Below are positions 1 to 4,886 of a stretch of DNA of 64,000 nucleotides, in pieces. Both the position numbers and the translations under genes were made by a program. The notes beneath the pieces were generated by a model. It ran no database searches. It was not told the DNA's origin and worked only from the letters and a program-made list of their open reading frames with translations. Location: positions 1-64,000 of the forward strand of contig NZ_CP048789.1 in NCBI RefSeq assembly GCF_012932215.1. The letters are read 5' to 3'. Within the stretch, counting starts at the first letter, position 1. Each line of letters starts with the position of its first letter. Source of the DNA: Roseobacter ponti (GTDB lineage: Bacteria > Pseudomonadota > Alphaproteobacteria > Rhodobacterales > Rhodobacteraceae).

Positions 1-1305
1 ATGTACACCCACCAGGACCTCGCCCGGCTGCAGGCGCAATCTCTGAAGATGCAGGGCTTCATCCGCCAGCAGACCTATTCTCCGCAGAATGAAAAGACCC
101 TGCGCCGGTTTTCCAGCTGGGAGGTCGCCGAGCTGATTTTCCGCGTCAATCAGTCCACAATGCGAGGCCGGCTTGCCGCCGACCCCACCCTGCCCCAGGG
201 CACGGTCGAGGCGGACGGCCGCCAGCACTGGTACAGCCTTGAAGAGATCAACGAGCTGCGCCGCCGGCTGAAGGTGAACCGTAAATCGCTGATGCCCTAC
301 CGCCCCGCCGGCAAACGCGCGATGCGCGCGGCGATTGCCAACTTCAAAGGCGGTGCCGGCAAATCCACCGTGGCGCTGCACTTTGCCCATGCCGCGGCCC
401 TCGATGGTTACCGCGTGCTCTGTGTGGATTTCGACCCGCAGGCCACGCTCAGCCACTCGATGGGTCTCAGCGACGTGGCGGAGGAATACACCGTCTGGGG
501 CATAATGGCGCGCGATCTGGCCGCCGAGACCGAGCGGATGAACCGTACGGCAAAAGGTGCCGAAAGCGGCACCGCCCTGCCGCAGCGCCGCCTGCCCGCC
601 TCGATCACCGACATGGGGCTTGCCGATCTGCGCGCGGCGGATTTCATCAAGCCGACGAACTGGCCCACTATCGATATCGTGCCCTCCTGTGCCAACGCGG
701 CCTTTGTCGAGTTCGCCTCGGCGCAGTACCGGCATATGAACCCCGAGTGGTCGTTTTTTGCCGCCGTCTCGCGCCTTCTCGATCAGCTGCCCGCAGATGC
801 CTATGACCTCGTGCTGTTCGACTGCCCGCCCGCCATCGGGTACCAGTCGATGAACGCGGTATTTGCCGCCGACATGCTCTATATCCCCTCCGGGCCGGGT
901 TACTGGGAATACGATTCGACCACCTCGTTCATTGGTCAGCTGGCCGAAGCGCTGGAGGATCTGAGCCGTTTTTCCGGGCTTGTCCCCGCGGGGACAATGA
1001 ACCTGCCCAAGACCTTTCTCGACCTGCATTTCCTGCTGACGCGCTTTGAGCCCAACAACGAGCTGCACCGTGCGATGCAGCAGGCTTTTATCAAAGTATG
1101 GGGCGATAGAGTGGCCGAGCACCCGATTGAAATGACCCGCGCGGTCGAGCAGTCCGGGCGCTTTTTATCGTCGATCTACGAAATCGATTACCGCGATATG
1201 ACCCGCGAAACCTGGCGGCGCGCCCGCGCCTCTTTCGACCAGGCCTATGCGGAATTCCGGACGCATCTCTGTGTGGCCTGGGACAAACTGGAGGATGAGG
1301 CATGA
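1..1305 (+). CDS. parA: ParA/RepA-type plasmid partition ATPase
   Basis: Partition ATPase of a low-copy replicon, expected to work with ParB on parS-type sites. Visible domains are an N-terminal winged-HTH-like part (residues about 35-90), a deviant Walker A (KGGAGKS at 116-122), a DFDPQAT switch at 143-149 and a Walker B-like LVLFDCPP near 270. The 434-aa length and N-terminal DNA-binding extension fit ParA/RepA proteins of alphaproteobacterial plasmids, not chromosomal Soj. The gene begins at the first base of the window, so a longer upstream start cannot be excluded. It overlaps parB by ATGA. Codons 328-332 (VPAGT) are written by a copy of the 16-bp palindrome at 981-996. No repC follows parB, which argues against an ordinary repABC operon. 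Confidence 0.9.
   Translation: MYTHQDLARLQAQSLKMQGFIRQQTYSPQNEKTLRRFSSWEVAELIFRVNQSTMRGRLAADPTLPQGTVEADGRQHWYSLEEINELRRRLKVNRKSLMPYRPAGKRAMRAAIANFKGGAGKSTVALHFAHAAALDGYRVLCVDFDPQATLSHSMGLSDVAEEYTVWGIMARDLAAETERMNRTAKGAESGTALPQRRLPASITDMGLADLRAADFIKPTNWPTIDIVPSCANAAFVEFASAQYRHMNPEWSFFAAVSRLLDQLPADAYDLVLFDCPPAIGYQSMNAVFAADMLYIPSGPGYWEYDSTTSFIGQLAEALEDLSRFSGLVPAGTMNLPKTFLDLHFLLTRFEPNNELHRAMQQAFIKVWGDRVAEHPIEMTRAVEQSGRFLSSIYEIDYRDMTRETWRRARASFDQAYAEFRTHLCVAWDKLEDEA
981..996. repeat. parS-like palindrome copy 1 (in parA)
   Basis: Perfect 16-bp palindrome TGTCCCCGCGGGGACA inside parA, read as VPAGT in the parA frame. It is one of five identical copies between 981 and 4422. Perfect palindromes of this size next to parAB act as centromere-like anchors on alphaproteobacterial plasmids; assignment here is by analogy. 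Confidence 0.75.
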
Positions 1306-2360
1306 GCAAGCGACGCGTCTTTGACATCGACTTTGAGGACACTGCTGTCCCCGCGGGGACAGAACCGCCCGCCGCGACCCGGCGCGGCCCGATGGCGGCC
1401 GCCATTTCGGAAAACGCCGAGGCCGTGAGCGCCCGCCAGGCGACCGAAGCCGGCATCCGCGAGGAGAACGACCGCCTCGCACATGAATACATGAAGCTCA
1501 AGAAAAACGGGCAGATCACCGGGCTCGTGCCGGTCGATATGATCCGGATGGACAAGCTGACGCGTGACCGCTCTGCGACCCGTGATCCGGAGCTGCAGGA
1601 GCTTAAGGATTCGATCCGCGCCGTGGGGCTGTCCAACCCGATCCGGGTGGAGGAAACCCGCGACGGGTTCGAGCTTATTCAGGGCTTCCGGCGTCTCAGC
1701 GCCTTTCGCGAACTGCTGGCGGAAACCGGCGATGAGACCTTTGCGCGCATCCCGGCGACGCTGCAGGCAAAAGGCGAGGATCTCAAACATCTCTACCGCC
1801 GGATGGTGGATGAAAACCTTGTGCGGCGCGATATTTCATTTGCCGAAATGGCGCAGCTGGCGATCAGCTATGCGGGCCAGCGCGGCATGGATGTGGGCGA
1901 GGCTGTGGACCGGCTCTATGCCTCCGCCGGGCGGCAGAAGAGGGCCTATATCAAGAGTTTCGTGCACCTGCTGAACAGCGTGGGCGACGCGCTGAAATTT
2001 CCCGAATCCATTCCGCGGGCGACGGGTCTGGGGCTGGTGAAACTGCTCGATACCAACCCGCGGTTTGCCGGCCAGTTGCGCGCGGTGCTCGACAGCCAGC
2101 GTGACCGGGATGCAGCAACCGAACTGAGCCTGTTGCGCGGCGCTGTGACGGGCGGTGCCGGCAAGCCGAAAAAGCCCAAAGCCCCTGCCCCGAAATCCTC
2201 CGCGCGCACCACGATCAAGCTCAACCGGCCCGAAGGTGTGGCGCGCTGCACGGCGTCGGCAGGCAAATTCGAAGTACTGCTGGATCATGATTTCGGCGCG
2301 GTGGATCCGCGGCGGCTGGAGCTTGCCGCCCGCGCGTTTCTGGATCAGCTCAAAGACTGA
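1302..2360 (+). CDS. parB: ParB-family plasmid partition protein
   Basis: Centromere-binding partner of ParA. The 352-aa protein has a basic N-terminus, a ParB/Srx-type domain from about residue 75, a GFRRLSA box at 128-134 corresponding to the GERR-type motif, and a central helix-turn-helix region at about 155-200. A Lys/Pro/Ala-rich linker precedes a short C-terminal domain. The start codon overlaps the parA stop by ATGA, so the two are translationally coupled. Residues 16-20 (VPAGT) are encoded by the palindrome at 1346-1361. The last 16 bases overlap the 3' end of bchO on the other strand, leaving no spacer between the partition module and the photosynthesis operon. The palindrome set in this region is its probable DNA target. 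Confidence 0.88.
   Translation: MSKRRVFDIDFEDTAVPAGTEPPAATRRGPMAAAISENAEAVSARQATEAGIREENDRLAHEYMKLKKNGQITGLVPVDMIRMDKLTRDRSATRDPELQELKDSIRAVGLSNPIRVEETRDGFELIQGFRRLSAFRELLAETGDETFARIPATLQAKGEDLKHLYRRMVDENLVRRDISFAEMAQLAISYAGQRGMDVGEAVDRLYASAGRQKRAYIKSFVHLLNSVGDALKFPESIPRATGLGLVKLLDTNPRFAGQLRAVLDSQRDRDAATELSLLRGAVTGGAGKPKKPKAPAPKSSARTTIKLNRPEGVARCTASAGKFEVLLDHDFGAVDPRRLELAARAFLDQLKD
1346..1361. repeat. parS-like palindrome copy 2 (in parB)
   Basis: Second identical copy of TGTCCCCGCGGGGACA, in the 5' part of parB, again read as VPAGT. It lies 365 bp from copy 1. Confidence 0.75.
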
Positions 2361-3220
2361 TCCGCAAGGAACGTCAGGATCATATCGGCCACCTCCTCCG
2401 GCGCTTCCTCATGCGCCAGGTGTCCGACGCCGGGCATGCGGACCAGACGCGCGCCGGGGATCTTTTCCGCCGCCCGTGCAGAGACCTGCGCCGGCACGGC
2501 CTTGTCGTTCTCCGCGGCGATCAGAAGCACCCGCGCAGTGATCTGTGGCAGATCGCGCAGAAGGTCCCCGAGCGACCAGTGCGCCATCATCATCAGCGTT
2601 GCATCCGCGTGGTCCCTGTTGCCCACCAGACGGCCGTAAAGCTGCAGGCCTTCAGAGTCTAATTCAGAGCCTGTACCGCGTATCAGAGCCTTTACGCGTG
2701 TCGGGTTGCCGGAGGCTGCAGAGAAGATCTGTGCGGTGAACGGCACGGCCGCCAGCATCTTGGCCAGCACCGGGAAAAGCACGCCTGCAAGCCCTTCGAA
2801 ATTGTCCAGAGCGGCGTTGATCCCCACCACATCCGGGGCCTGTCCCCGCGGGGACAGAAGCCGCTGTGAGAGCCGCAGGGCAAGTGCCGCACCCGCCGAA
2901 TGACCGATGATTGCTGCGGGCTGCCAGCCCTCCCGGGTGCACAGTGTGGCGACGTCCTCGCTCATCGGCTCCAGACCACAGCGGTGACGCGCGCCAAGCT
3001 GTGTGAACCCCTGCCCCGGCAGGTCAATCGCCACCACATGATACTGCGTGCTGAGCCGCGGGATCAGATCGCGGAAACTATGCGTACTGCCGCCCGCGCC
3101 ATGCAGCAGCAGCAGTGTATCGCCGTGCCCGGTTTCCTGAACGTGCCAGCGATGTGGTTTGCACAGCACCTGCCGCGAGAGGGCCGCGTTGGGCCAGTCG
3201 GAGGGGGGCGGCCAGCGCAT
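2345..3220 (-). CDS. bchO: BchO, Mg-chelatase-associated alpha/beta hydrolase
   Basis: Alpha/beta-hydrolase fold protein encoded with the Mg-chelatase subunits in purple bacteria; its exact reaction is not settled. The 291-aa product opens with MRWPP, typical of BchO. It has an oxyanion-hole HGAGG at 40-44, a nucleophile elbow GHSAG at 106-110 (Ser108) and a C-terminal GVGHLAHEE around the expected catalytic His. It is the last gene of crtA-bchI-bchD-bchO and starts 7 bp after the bchD stop. Residues 123-127 (SPRGQ) are encoded by palindrome copy 3. The 3' end overlaps parB, so no terminator fits between the two converging units. Confidence 0.9.
   Translation of the reverse strand: MRWPPPSDWPNAALSRQVLCKPHRWHVQETGHGDTLLLLHGAGGSTHSFRDLIPRLSTQYHVVAIDLPGQGFTQLGARHRCGLEPMSEDVATLCTREGWQPAAIIGHSAGAALALRLSQRLLSPRGQAPDVVGINAALDNFEGLAGVLFPVLAKMLAAVPFTAQIFSAASGNPTRVKALIRGTGSELDSEGLQLYGRLVGNRDHADATLMMMAHWSLGDLLRDLPQITARVLLIAAENDKAVPAQVSARAAEKIPGARLVRMPGVGHLAHEEAPEEVADMILTFLADQSLS
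2841..2856. repeat. parS-like palindrome copy 3 (in bchO)
   Basis: Third perfect copy of TGTCCCCGCGGGGACA, inside bchO just after the nucleophile elbow. It is read as SPRGQ because the frame differs from the other four copies. Confidence 0.75.
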
Positions 3221-3227
3221 ATGTCGC

Positions 3228-4886
3228 TCAGGCGTCCAGCGCGGCGCTCACAGCGCCGGTGAGCCGCTCTGCGTTTGCACGGGGCAGCGCAAGATACGGG
3301 GCGTTCAGATGCCCGGCGAGGGTGCGCAGCGCCTCCTGCGGGCGGTTTGACATATCGATCACCAGGGCGGACGTGCCGCGCGCCCGCAACACCGCCGCCA
3401 TCTGCAGCGCATCCGCGGCTGCAGCGGCCCGGTCCGGCGCGCCATCAAGTGCGATATTCGCGCGTCCGTCCGTGAGCAGGACGACGGTGGGCGTCAGCCC
3501 GCGCGCGCGGCTTTGTTCAGCCAGCCCGGCGGCCTGTTCAAGCCCCGCGGCCAGCGGTGTGCCGCCACCACCGGGCAGCCCGGCAAGGCGGCGTTTTGTC
3601 TGCACCAGCGAGCGCGTAGGTGGCAGCATCAGTTCGGCACCGGAGCCGCGAAACGAAATCAGCGCGACATGGTCGCGCGCGGCATAGGCCTGCGCCAGCA
3701 ACAGTTCAACGGCGCCCTTGGCCTCGTTCAGCCGCGACACCGCCGCGGAGCCCGACGCATCCACCGCAAATATCAGCAGGCGGTCGGACATTTCCTCATA
3801 GCGCCGCACCCGGATGTCGCCGGGCCGGATGAGCAGACCGGGCGTGTCGGGCTGTGCCTGCCGGCGCAGCGGTTGCCATGGGGCTGCGGCGCGCAGGGTC
3901 GCCACCAGATCGATGCGCGCACGTCCGTCGAGCCGTCCGGGACGGGAGGGCAGGGGGCGTCCGCGCCGGTTGCCTTTGCGCGCTTTTCCGGCGCCGTTTC
4001 CGGAGGCGCGGGCCACTGTCCCCGCGGGGACAAGCCCGGCGAGCAGGTCGGCGGGCAGCAGCGCTCTGACCGCGTCAACAAGCAAATCGCCGTCGGGCAG
4101 AGTATCCGGCTGGCCATCGCTGCCGCTGTCATCCGGCGCGTTTTCAGGCGGCGGGGGCGGGGTGTCGTCCTCGGCTGCGGGCTCTTCGGGAAAGGTTGTG
4201 GCGCGCTGCGGATAGACAAGGGCGGCAGCAGCACCCAGATCGTCGTCAGTGACCATGCTGCGCCCGCTGAAGGCAGCATGGCACCGGGCCAGACGCACCG
4301 CCATCGTGGGCGCGCGCAGGTTGTCGATGCCAAAGCGGGCGGCGAGCGTGGTCAGCGCGTCGATCTGCTCCGCTGCGATGGTCACATCCGCGGGGTCAAA
4401 GGGTTCTGTCCCCGCGGGGACAGGCGCCCAGCCGGCCGGCATGCGCCCCTCCGGCGAGAGGTAAAGCGCGAGTCGCCCGGAGAGGGCAGGGGGCAGGGTT
4501 TCATCCGGCTCGGCACCTTCATCAAGGGCGATGATCACCGGGGTGACCGCACGGTCAGTACGGGCAGCGAGACGCGCGGCGAGGCCGGTGCTGCACCGCT
4601 CTGCCATGCTCAGGATTACAACCTGCGCTGTATCTAATATTCCTTTATTATCAATGATATGACCAGATTTTAGTGTAGCGCCGAGGTCAAGGCCGCCAAA
4701 GAGCTGATCGTCCGATATGGTGGGGTGGATGCGGCGCGCGGCAAGCGGGCTCAGCGCGTCCAGAATACGGTCACGGGCAGGGCCCGCGCGCATCCGCAGA
4801 TGCAGGCCGCCGGCAAAGACGGGATCAAAGAGCAGCAGGCCGATCGCAAGTGCGGCGCGGTCCCAGCTGTCGGGGTCATCGCTCAC
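3228..4886 (-). CDS. bchD: Magnesium chelatase subunit D
   Basis: AAA+/integrin-I subunit that, with BchI and BchH, inserts Mg2+ into protoporphyrin IX. The product (552 aa) has a degenerate AAA+ N-terminal half, an acidic proline-rich linker (about 236-265) and a C-terminal von Willebrand A domain with the MIDAS motif DASGS at 376-380. I chose the GTG start at 4886, which overlaps the bchI stop as GTGA; the frame stays open to 5111 but upstream residues are unlike BchD. Two palindrome copies are embedded, giving VPAGT at 156-160 and 286-290. A 48-base AT-rich patch at 4631-4678 encodes residues near 70-85 with rare A/T-ending codons. Confidence 0.92.
   Translation of the reverse strand: MSDDPDSWDRAALAIGLLLFDPVFAGGLHLRMRAGPARDRILDALSPLAARRIHPTISDDQLFGGLDLGATLKSGHIIDNKGILDTAQVVILSMAERCSTGLAARLAARTDRAVTPVIIALDEGAEPDETLPPALSGRLALYLSPEGRMPAGWAPVPAGTEPFDPADVTIAAEQIDALTTLAARFGIDNLRAPTMAVRLARCHAAFSGRSMVTDDDLGAAAALVYPQRATTFPEEPAAEDDTPPPPPENAPDDSGSDGQPDTLPDGDLLVDAVRALLPADLLAGLVPAGTVARASGNGAGKARKGNRRGRPLPSRPGRLDGRARIDLVATLRAAAPWQPLRRQAQPDTPGLLIRPGDIRVRRYEEMSDRLLIFAVDASGSAAVSRLNEAKGAVELLLAQAYAARDHVALISFRGSGAELMLPPTRSLVQTKRRLAGLPGGGGTPLAAGLEQAAGLAEQSRARGLTPTVVLLTDGRANIALDGAPDRAAAAADALQMAAVLRARGTSALVIDMSNRPQEALRTLAGHLNAPYLALPRANAERLTGAVSAALDA
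4017..4032. repeat. parS-like palindrome copy 4 (in bchD)
   Basis: Fourth perfect copy of TGTCCCCGCGGGGACA. It is read as VPAGT (BchD residues 286-290) in the low-complexity linker before the integrin-I domain. Confidence 0.75.
4407..4422. repeat. parS-like palindrome copy 5 (in bchD)
   Basis: Fifth perfect copy, 390 bp from copy 4, read as VPAGT at BchD residues 156-160. I found no further perfect copy downstream. Confidence 0.75.

Follow-up and report, generated by a model that had tools for sequence, protein, structure and literature searches.

Why does a perfect 16-bp palindrome, TGTCCCCGCGGGGACA (here called M), occur five times inside the coding sequences of partition and photosynthesis genes? 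The palindromes lie in a 64-kb stretch of Roseobacter ponti DNA, which was analyzed whole and is called the window. It belongs to a contig of 100,942 bp (C2) in a genome of 3.96 Mb in two contigs, the chromosome being 3.86 Mb. The features are listed below by window position; conservation is that among 14 plasmids, 13 from the genus of the window and one relative (L137), and ranks order the segments of a gene by nucleotide conservation.

1 to 1305, plus strand: parA, 434 amino acids, Walker ATPase (Pfam AAA_31, E = 3.3e-24), DnaA-like I type replicon
1302 to 2360, plus strand: parB, 352 amino acids; R211 opens the predicted recognition helix
2345 to 3220, minus strand: bchO, 291 amino acids, alpha/beta hydrolase; convergent with parB and overlapping its 3' end
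3228 to 4886, minus strand: bchD
981 to 996: predicted parS in parA, VPAGT; identical in 14/14 plasmids; rank 1/1287, tied with overlapping segments
1346 to 1361: predicted parS near the 5' end of parB, VPAGT; exact in 7/14, at most one mismatch in 11/14; rank 140/981
2841 to 2856: predicted parS in bchO, SPRGQ frame, residue 122; exact in 12/14, at most one mismatch in 14/14; rank 1/858
4017 to 4032: predicted parS in bchD, VPAGT, residue 286; exact in 10/14, at most one mismatch in 14/14; rank 2/1557
4407 to 4422: predicted parS in bchD, VPAGT, residue 156; exact in 12/14, at most one mismatch in 14/14; rank 1/1557

The five palindromes, together with a one-mismatch copy before parA, are very probably the centromere, as a set of parS sites, of the ParAB system that this plasmid encodes, for which there are no binding or partition data. 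The computed support consists of site identity, position, conservation, linkage to and co-variation with ParB, and loss or decay where parAB no longer adjoins the genes. Against this reading stand the Pfam score of ParB, which is under the cut-off, and the poor conservation of the parB site (7/14 exact).

The earlier note had counted five exact copies and no others in 64 kb. A search allowing three mismatches finds no further match anywhere in the window, and none of 100 dinucleotide shuffles of it, searched likewise, gives five matches (mean 0.62, largest 4). The frames are confirmed as well: all copies are coding, four of them (ParA, ParB, and both BchD sites) for VPAGT and the BchO copy for SPRGQ. 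The count over the whole genome that the note had proposed gives a mixed answer. Five of the six exact copies of M are on this replicon, but the chromosome is not entirely free of it, carrying one exact and five one-mismatch copies. A further one-mismatch copy, at C2:100907-100922, starts 36 bp before the start of parA if C2 is circular. With up to two mismatches, M has 19 places in the genome and a reversed control pattern has one. The six chromosomal copies with at most one mismatch all lie in the first 0.73 Mb of the contig, a post hoc observation without statistics.

The protein encoded by parB matches Pfam ParB_N with E = 2.1e-5 and 24.9 bits, slightly below the cut-off of 26.3, and Spo0J (1vz0) with E = 3.7e-5; Foldseek matches of its AlphaFold model (mean pLDDT 76.7, pTM 0.42) are Noc, ParB, and KorB. 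Adjacent parA and parB genes for a Walker ATPase and a ParB-fold protein, with cis palindromes near parAB that track ParB type, are sequence features expected of a plasmid-type ParABS system. The replicon likewise fits the DnaA-like I type, with a DnaA-like gene divergent from parAB and a homologous module at the known photosynthesis-cluster position. The DnaA-like ORF (225 amino acids, L023:15761-16438) matches DnaA_N with E = 4e-5 and 23.7 bits, slightly below the cut-off of 24.6. Gene order at the module is that of pRLO149_94, whose replicon type is taken from PMC6052148.

Exact M is missing from 359 of 395 family genomes, and the reversed control from all 395. A ParB of this kind is found at E ≤ 1e-60 in 35 of the 36 genomes with exact M, and in the 36th at 1.1e-55; 69 of the 359 genomes without M have one at the 1e-60 cut-off. 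M clusters at parAB of plasmids both with and without photosynthesis genes. For example, a Leisingera locus without photosynthesis genes (L018) has 10 exact copies around parAB, six of which are in the intergenic DNA after parB, and M is placed similarly in two others without such genes (L017 and L019). Exact copies away from parAB number one in the source genome, seven in G019, and at least three in G018.

Several ParB loci repeat one plasmid (for example, L241 and L051), and a tree was made from 92 distinct proteins; a separate 52-row locus comparison contains repeated plasmids. By palindrome, these ParBs divide into M (47), GTTCCCCGCGGGGAAC (22), CTTCCCCGCGGGGAAG (11), and others (2), and no such palindrome was found for 10 of the 92. 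Palindrome type changes six times on the tree, whereas 500 shuffles give a mean of 31.2 changes and never fewer than 26. With L145, L285, L316, and L336 excluded and assessed separately, all 45 M-type ParBs have R at residue 211, all 10 C-type ParBs have Y, and 19 of the 22 G-type ParBs have K. This residue largely separates the three palindrome types. Because three G-type ParBs have R211, it is not the sole determinant of specificity, and the pattern is partly due to common ancestry. One plasmid (L144) has the G-type palindrome at the BchO and BchD columns where other plasmids have M.

Among 154 genomes with BchD, 80 loci were taken, mostly the most similar, along with a genus set, and 100 loci have both bchO and bchD. 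Of the 25 loci whose examined stretch includes such a ParB, 24 have sites within these genes; of the 75 without one, none does. Most stretches are about 9.6 kb, so parAB farther off would go unseen. A counterexample outside the set, G150 (L288), has parAB adjoining bchO-bchD, R211, and a one-mismatch M in parA, and nothing within three mismatches in bchO or bchD; adding it gives 24 of 26. One locus (L016) has a single palindrome, of a different type, outside genes. Photosynthesis clusters are without sites where the M-type ParB lies on another contig (G019 and G075) or about 16 kb off (G259). Outside the examined loci, G065 and G169 have exact M inside the bchD place with ParB adjoining, and G184, a genome without M, has its ParB about 7 kb from bchD. 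In G062, two copies of AATTGTCAGCTGACAATT, one within bchO, adjoin a RepABC operon; this is no more than suggestive, any link to a ParB being hypothetical.

Conservation of the sites is visible at the level of DNA. M heads the ranking in parA (tied), bchO, and bchD across the 14 plasmids; two of these also have an exact third BchD site, at residue 345, and one has an exact second BchO site. In one plasmid pair, 0/48 site bases differ versus a background of 33.8% (p = 5.7e-9), and other pairs give 0/48 versus 11.6% (p = 0.005) and 5/64 versus 26.6% (p = 2.7e-4). The effect is weak in L011/L046 (11/64, p = 0.036) and not significant in two little-diverged pairs. Together with the co-occurrence of ParB and the co-variation with its tree and residue 211, this conservation in bchO and bchD supports the parS set that the earlier note had suggested, including its extension about 2 kb beyond parB into these genes. 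The possibility that the peptides are lineage-specific insertions receives a divided answer. BchD residue 286 aligns without gaps to relatives lacking parAB, which have other residues there. BchO residue 122 is gap-free within the genus, again with other residues, but BchO differs in length from distant homologues, and BchD residue 156 falls in a length-variable linker.

The pigment genes would be tied to plasmid inheritance, as had been suggested, in the physical sense only: they do not need the sites, because clusters of relatives without adjoining parAB lack them. Some clusters without parAB are nested among plasmid-borne clusters on a midpoint-rooted tree, in which some nodes are weakly supported, and intact sites are absent from them. 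The only recognizable decayed remnants are in G010 (L090, contig of 4.1 Mb); none are found at up to two mismatches in L088 (4.5 Mb), L089 (220 kb), or L091 (756 kb), and the last two contigs may or may not be chromosomal. Sites in L011/L090 are relaxed rather than faster, since their 15/64 differences are not significant against a background of 19.3%. The difference is also not significant in L048/L091 (20/48 versus 34.9%), and sites have changed faster in L050/L088 (23/48 versus 30.0%, p = 0.011). The remnants in the chromosome of a relative suggest that its photosynthesis genes were formerly on such a plasmid. Because scars fade, as in L088, L089, and L091, their absence proves nothing.

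Three genomes (G072, G101, and G259) have a ParB without the usual N-terminal region and without ParA, and 34 to 90 core copies of a palindrome throughout the genome. They are the only ones with a late-starting ParB among the matches listed at E ≤ 1e-60 and six genomes at 0.001. G101 is Actibacterium sp. 188UL27-1. ParA was not found on the whole contig of the G101 gene (C17) or in 19.5 kb of G072, and the orphan ParB of G259 adjoins a RepABC operon that encodes a RepA and a RepB of its own. G101 has 79 exact copies of M, including copies away from parAB, G259 has 62 exact copies, and G072 has 34 of the core. The type is TGTCCCC in G101 and G259 and CTTCCCC in G072, in each case matching ParB residue 211, from which the dispersed sites are inferred to be cognate. 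A ParB relative without ParA and with dozens of dispersed cognate sites is one mark of a Noc-like system. If the G072 contig is cut into eight equal bins, beginning at the end where the first ORF was read as dnaA, the 25 listed places of the copies fall as 4, 2, 3, 1, 2, 3, 9, and 1. Because the orphan ParBs form no common group on the tree, independent origins look likely, and they are possibly an independently evolved Noc-like system whose function is untested. A tentative scenario, slightly easier to doubt than to accept, is that a ParB is stranded without ParA, the host gains dozens of parS sites in place by base changes, some in conserved genes, and a genome-wide DNA-organizing or regulatory system results; the bchO and bchD sites would be a local form of this tendency.

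These high copy numbers in G101, G259, and G072, and the fact that some copies are paired about 30 bp apart, could also indicate a mobile, HIP1-like palindromic repeat that is dense at parAB by chance. This is very improbable, in that M is absent from most family genomes and palindrome type agrees with residue 211. Flanks vary among the places read (15 of the 79 copies in G101 and 24 of the 34 in G072), apart from an AAAC/GTTT extension common to many G072 copies, and alignments of G101 TrmD and ValRS to homologues have no gap at the site. Conservation of VPAGT and SPRGQ as peptides, by protein constraint or codon bias, with DNA identity as a by-product, has in its favor that four of five copies share frame and peptide, and that ParA of L144 keeps the peptide at the same column despite three mismatches to M. 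It can hardly be entertained, because sites occur in three reading frames and in intergenic DNA and palindrome type switches along with ParB. For bchO and bchD it is already contradicted by the nucleotide ranking and by the other residues at these columns in clusters without parAB.

The bchO and bchD sites might instead be regulatory and serve to control the pigment genes, bound either by ParB itself or by a regulator of photosynthesis, for instance PpsR. The sites do lie within the operon, ParB-type proteins are able to spread and silence neighboring genes, and the TGT...ACA ends of M resemble a PpsR site. PpsR sites are TGT-N12-ACA, whereas the spacing in M is N10, and a PpsR operator is rejected on this ground. 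Regulation in general is unlikely, given that the same sites accompany parAB on plasmids that lack photosynthesis genes and are absent from the 75 clusters without adjoining ParB. A mild side effect of ParB spreading is not excluded.

Returning to the parS array, binding, loading, partition, autoregulation, and selection for several sites are inferred. ParB, with its ParB/Noc fold, would bind the palindrome by means of a helix-turn-helix, in which R211 is the predicted start of the recognition helix, and would load from several sites; ParA would then move the ParB-DNA complex. The copy near the start of parA probably also serves autoregulation, and multiple sites over 1 to 4 kb around parAB appear to be favored. 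There is no intergenic room between parB and bchO, and because bchO overlaps the end of parB, sites 3' of parB had to arise through base changes in the coding sequences of bchO and bchD. The result is likely a centromere that evolves within protein-coding genes in step with its binding protein.

The closest likeness is to the DnaA-like I plasmids of Rhodobacterales, for which Petersen et al. 2011 reportedly proposed conserved palindromes as centromeric anchors; the window shares with these plasmids the replicon type, the palindromes, and a DnaA-like gene that diverges from parAB. To our knowledge, that work does not describe sites in cargo photosynthesis genes, coding-level conservation, switching, or scars. 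Sites inside downstream genes are already known from repABC plasmids of Rhodobacterales, in which several parS are spread as far as about 4 kb downstream, a few of them in ORFs (cas3, casA, and casB), and positive selection was proposed (PMC9040568). The window differs in replicon type, in host genes (bchO and bchD), and in parS consensus, and M is rejected as a repABC parS, which is GTTNNNNGCNNNNAAC. It adds tests at the codon level, a co-variation of the sites with ParB, and their decay in the absence of parAB.

Plasmid photosynthesis clusters have a DnaA-like I module at a fixed position, and outsourcing and insourcing of the clusters were proposed (PMC6052148, PMC6739100). The words "palindrom" and "centromere" are absent from the main texts of both articles, supplements excluded. 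A plasmid past has so far been argued from trees (PMC6052148), and parS scars provide a DNA-level marker for testing whether chromosomal photosynthesis clusters were once plasmid-borne.

Noc is related to ParB but recognizes an altered site. Its palindromic sites (NBSs), about 70 in number, are dispersed and absent near the terminus; it has a membrane-targeting N-terminal helix, and its specificity is set in the DNA-binding domain (PMC7383237, PMC4331003). The gap near the terminus is unmatched among the 25 listed G072 places (of 34 copies in all). The orphan ParBs resemble Noc as ParB relatives with dispersed palindromic sites, and their three genomes offer separate cases for studying the origin of a Noc-like system.

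Roseobacter ponti has a 3.96-Mb genome in two contigs, of which C2 measures 100,942 bp and begins at parA. The 16-bp palindrome TGTCCCCGCGGGGACA (M), read as the parS of the plasmid's own ParAB, lies within four C2 genes:

981, exact M in parA
1346, exact M in parB
2841, exact M in bchO
4017, exact M in bchD
4407, exact M in bchD

The earlier note's count of five copies and no others in 64 kb holds even when up to three mismatches are allowed, as the window contains no further match at that threshold. The convergent genes parB (end 2360) and bchO (end 2345) overlap. If C2 is circular, CGTCCCCGCGGGGACA at C2:100907 starts 36 bp before parA. This parA-proximal copy starts with C (CGTCCC...) in all 13 of the compared plasmids in which it was read (12 of the genus and that of locus L137), which suggests that the operator is maintained in imperfect form. 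On the chromosome, C1, allowing up to one mismatch gives six copies (168596, 542306, 729734, 3212688, 3461748 and 3674834), none farther than 0.73 Mb from the contig start, and a canonical parS lies at 81 kb; this clustering was noticed post hoc.

M goes with the replicon rather than with photosynthesis. The same cluster adjoins parAB in R. litoralis pRLO149_94, Thalassococcus S3 and Tateyamaria omphalii, and M is also found on plasmids whose parAB has no photosynthesis genes beside it. Leisingera thetidis carries 10 exact copies, six of which lie between parB and the following gene, and M likewise occurs in Sulfitobacter THAF37 and Salipiger abyssi, in which photosynthesis genes do not adjoin parAB. 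Exact M is missing from 359 of the 395 family genomes; among the other 36, this ParB is encoded at E<=1e-60 in 35 and at 1.1e-55 in G259. Complete parAB with sites is present on two very large contigs (L042, G005:C10, 1.07 Mb; L287, G419:C5, 3.79 Mb), read here as integrated plasmids or chromids.

Around parAB of further DnaA-like plasmids, GTTCCCCGCGGGGAAC or CTTCCCCGCGGGGAAG is found instead, and, judged from sequence, site type follows ParB. On a tree of 92 distinct ParBs, 82 with an assigned site type, that type changes 6 times, versus a mean of 31.2 and a minimum of 26 in 500 shuffles. Residue 211 (window ParB numbering) is R in 45/45 M-type (TGTCCCC) ParBs, Y in 10/10 CTTCCCC-type ParBs and K in 19 of the 22 GTTCCCC-type ParBs, with R in the other three. 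This residue opens a predicted helix (211-230) after helix 198-205 in an AlphaFold model (mean pLDDT 76.7, pTM 0.42) whose best Foldseek matches are Noc, ParB and KorB. According to PMC7383237, the helix-turn-helix recognition helix of ParB/Noc inserts into the major groove, and specificity is established as determined by residues of the DNA-binding domain.

Inside genes, the alignments indicate that the conserved thing is the DNA. Nucleotide windows were ranked per gene across 14 plasmids, L137 and 13 from the genus. In parA all 14 share an identical M (rank 1 of 1287, tied with neighbouring windows); in bchO 12/14 carry it exactly (rank 1 of 858), and the two bchD sites are exact in 12/14 (rank 1 of 1557) and 10/14 (rank 2). 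Mean nucleotide identity in bchO and bchD is 0.67-0.68. In parB, M is exact in just 7/14 (rank 140 of 981). Between the L050 and L048 plasmids, 0 of 48 site bases differ, versus 33.8% in the rest of the two genes (p 5.7e-9); this contrast is weaker in the remaining pairs.

In-gene sites are present in 24 of the 25 bchO-bchD loci with a family ParB in the fetched stretch and in 0 of the 75 without one; one of the 24 has the orphan ParB of G101. Close linkage of ParB matters, because no sites were found in the bchO-bchD clusters of G019 and G075, whose M-type ParB is on a different contig, or of G259, where it is about 16 kb off. Outside this set of 100 loci, G150 (L288, G150:C33:1-9000) has parAB with R211 adjoining bchO-bchD, no site inside either gene, and copies in parA and parB that are all imperfect, an arrangement that is either decaying or very recent. 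Sites seem to have arisen repeatedly, because distant plasmids carry them at different positions (for example, 18, 122, 227 and 242 in BchO, and 156, 253, 286, 344, 345 and 487 in BchD). L144 has another palindrome type at columns that hold M in other plasmids.

Four clusters without parAB (L088, L089, L090 and L091) nest among plasmid-borne clusters on a BchO+BchD tree built with site columns masked. L090, on a 4.13-Mb contig of G010, is the sister of R. litoralis on this tree and retains TGCCCCCGCAGGAACA and TGCCCCTGCGGGGACA at the two BchD site positions; recognisable remnants were not found in the other three. Such putative scars fit the insourcing of photosynthesis clusters, which PMC6052148 proposes from trees.

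Three genomes have many copies of the 12-bp core dispersed across the genome (90 in G101, 66 in G259 and 34 in G072; next highest, 18), with exact M numbering 79 in G101 and 62 in G259 (loci L217, L226-L239, L270-L273 and L301-L335). These same genomes are the ones in which the listed match to ParB, altered at its N-terminus, starts only at window-ParB residue 75-78. A ParA of this type was found neither on the whole of G101 contig C17 nor in 19.5 kb of G072, and the G259 ParB adjoins a RepABC operon. The three ParBs do not cluster on the tree, although its branches are long. G101 and G259 combine M sites with R211, and G072 has CTTCCCCGCGGGGAAG at 23 of 24 sites read and Y211, the residue predicted by that type. 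Many G072 copies (such as L301 and L305) are lengthened to AAAC-CTTCCCCGCGGGGAAG-GTTT, a palindrome that exceeds the plasmid sites in length. Several of the 15 G101 places read fall in conserved genes. The sites in G101 TrmD and ValRS show no gap when aligned to homologues of known structure; TrmD homologues read SPRGR or SPRGK at this position, and G018 TrmD has M at the same place. Our reading is that these are orphan ParBs whose sites spread through base changes. The systems are possibly Noc-like, and their function is unknown; no terminus gap was seen among the 25 G072 places listed.

In the literature searched, which did not cover supplements and most subscription papers, neither parS within bchO or bchD nor an orphan ParB accompanied by dispersed parS was found described. 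In 2011, Petersen and colleagues reportedly proposed that palindromes serve DnaA-like plasmids as centromeric anchors. In another replicon type, L206 (G062), a RepABC operon occupies the corresponding position in the photosynthesis cluster, and the 18-bp palindrome AATTGTCAGCTGACAATT occurs once within bchO and once between bchO and that operon (3396-3413 and 4094-4111); perhaps this is the same trick of in-gene sites. PMC9040568 describes parS inside ORFs that follow repABC and puts forward selection as a hypothesis for them. Near the end of C2, a 225-aa gene divergent from parA has a DnaA_N match near threshold, an arrangement resembling that of DnaA-like replicons.
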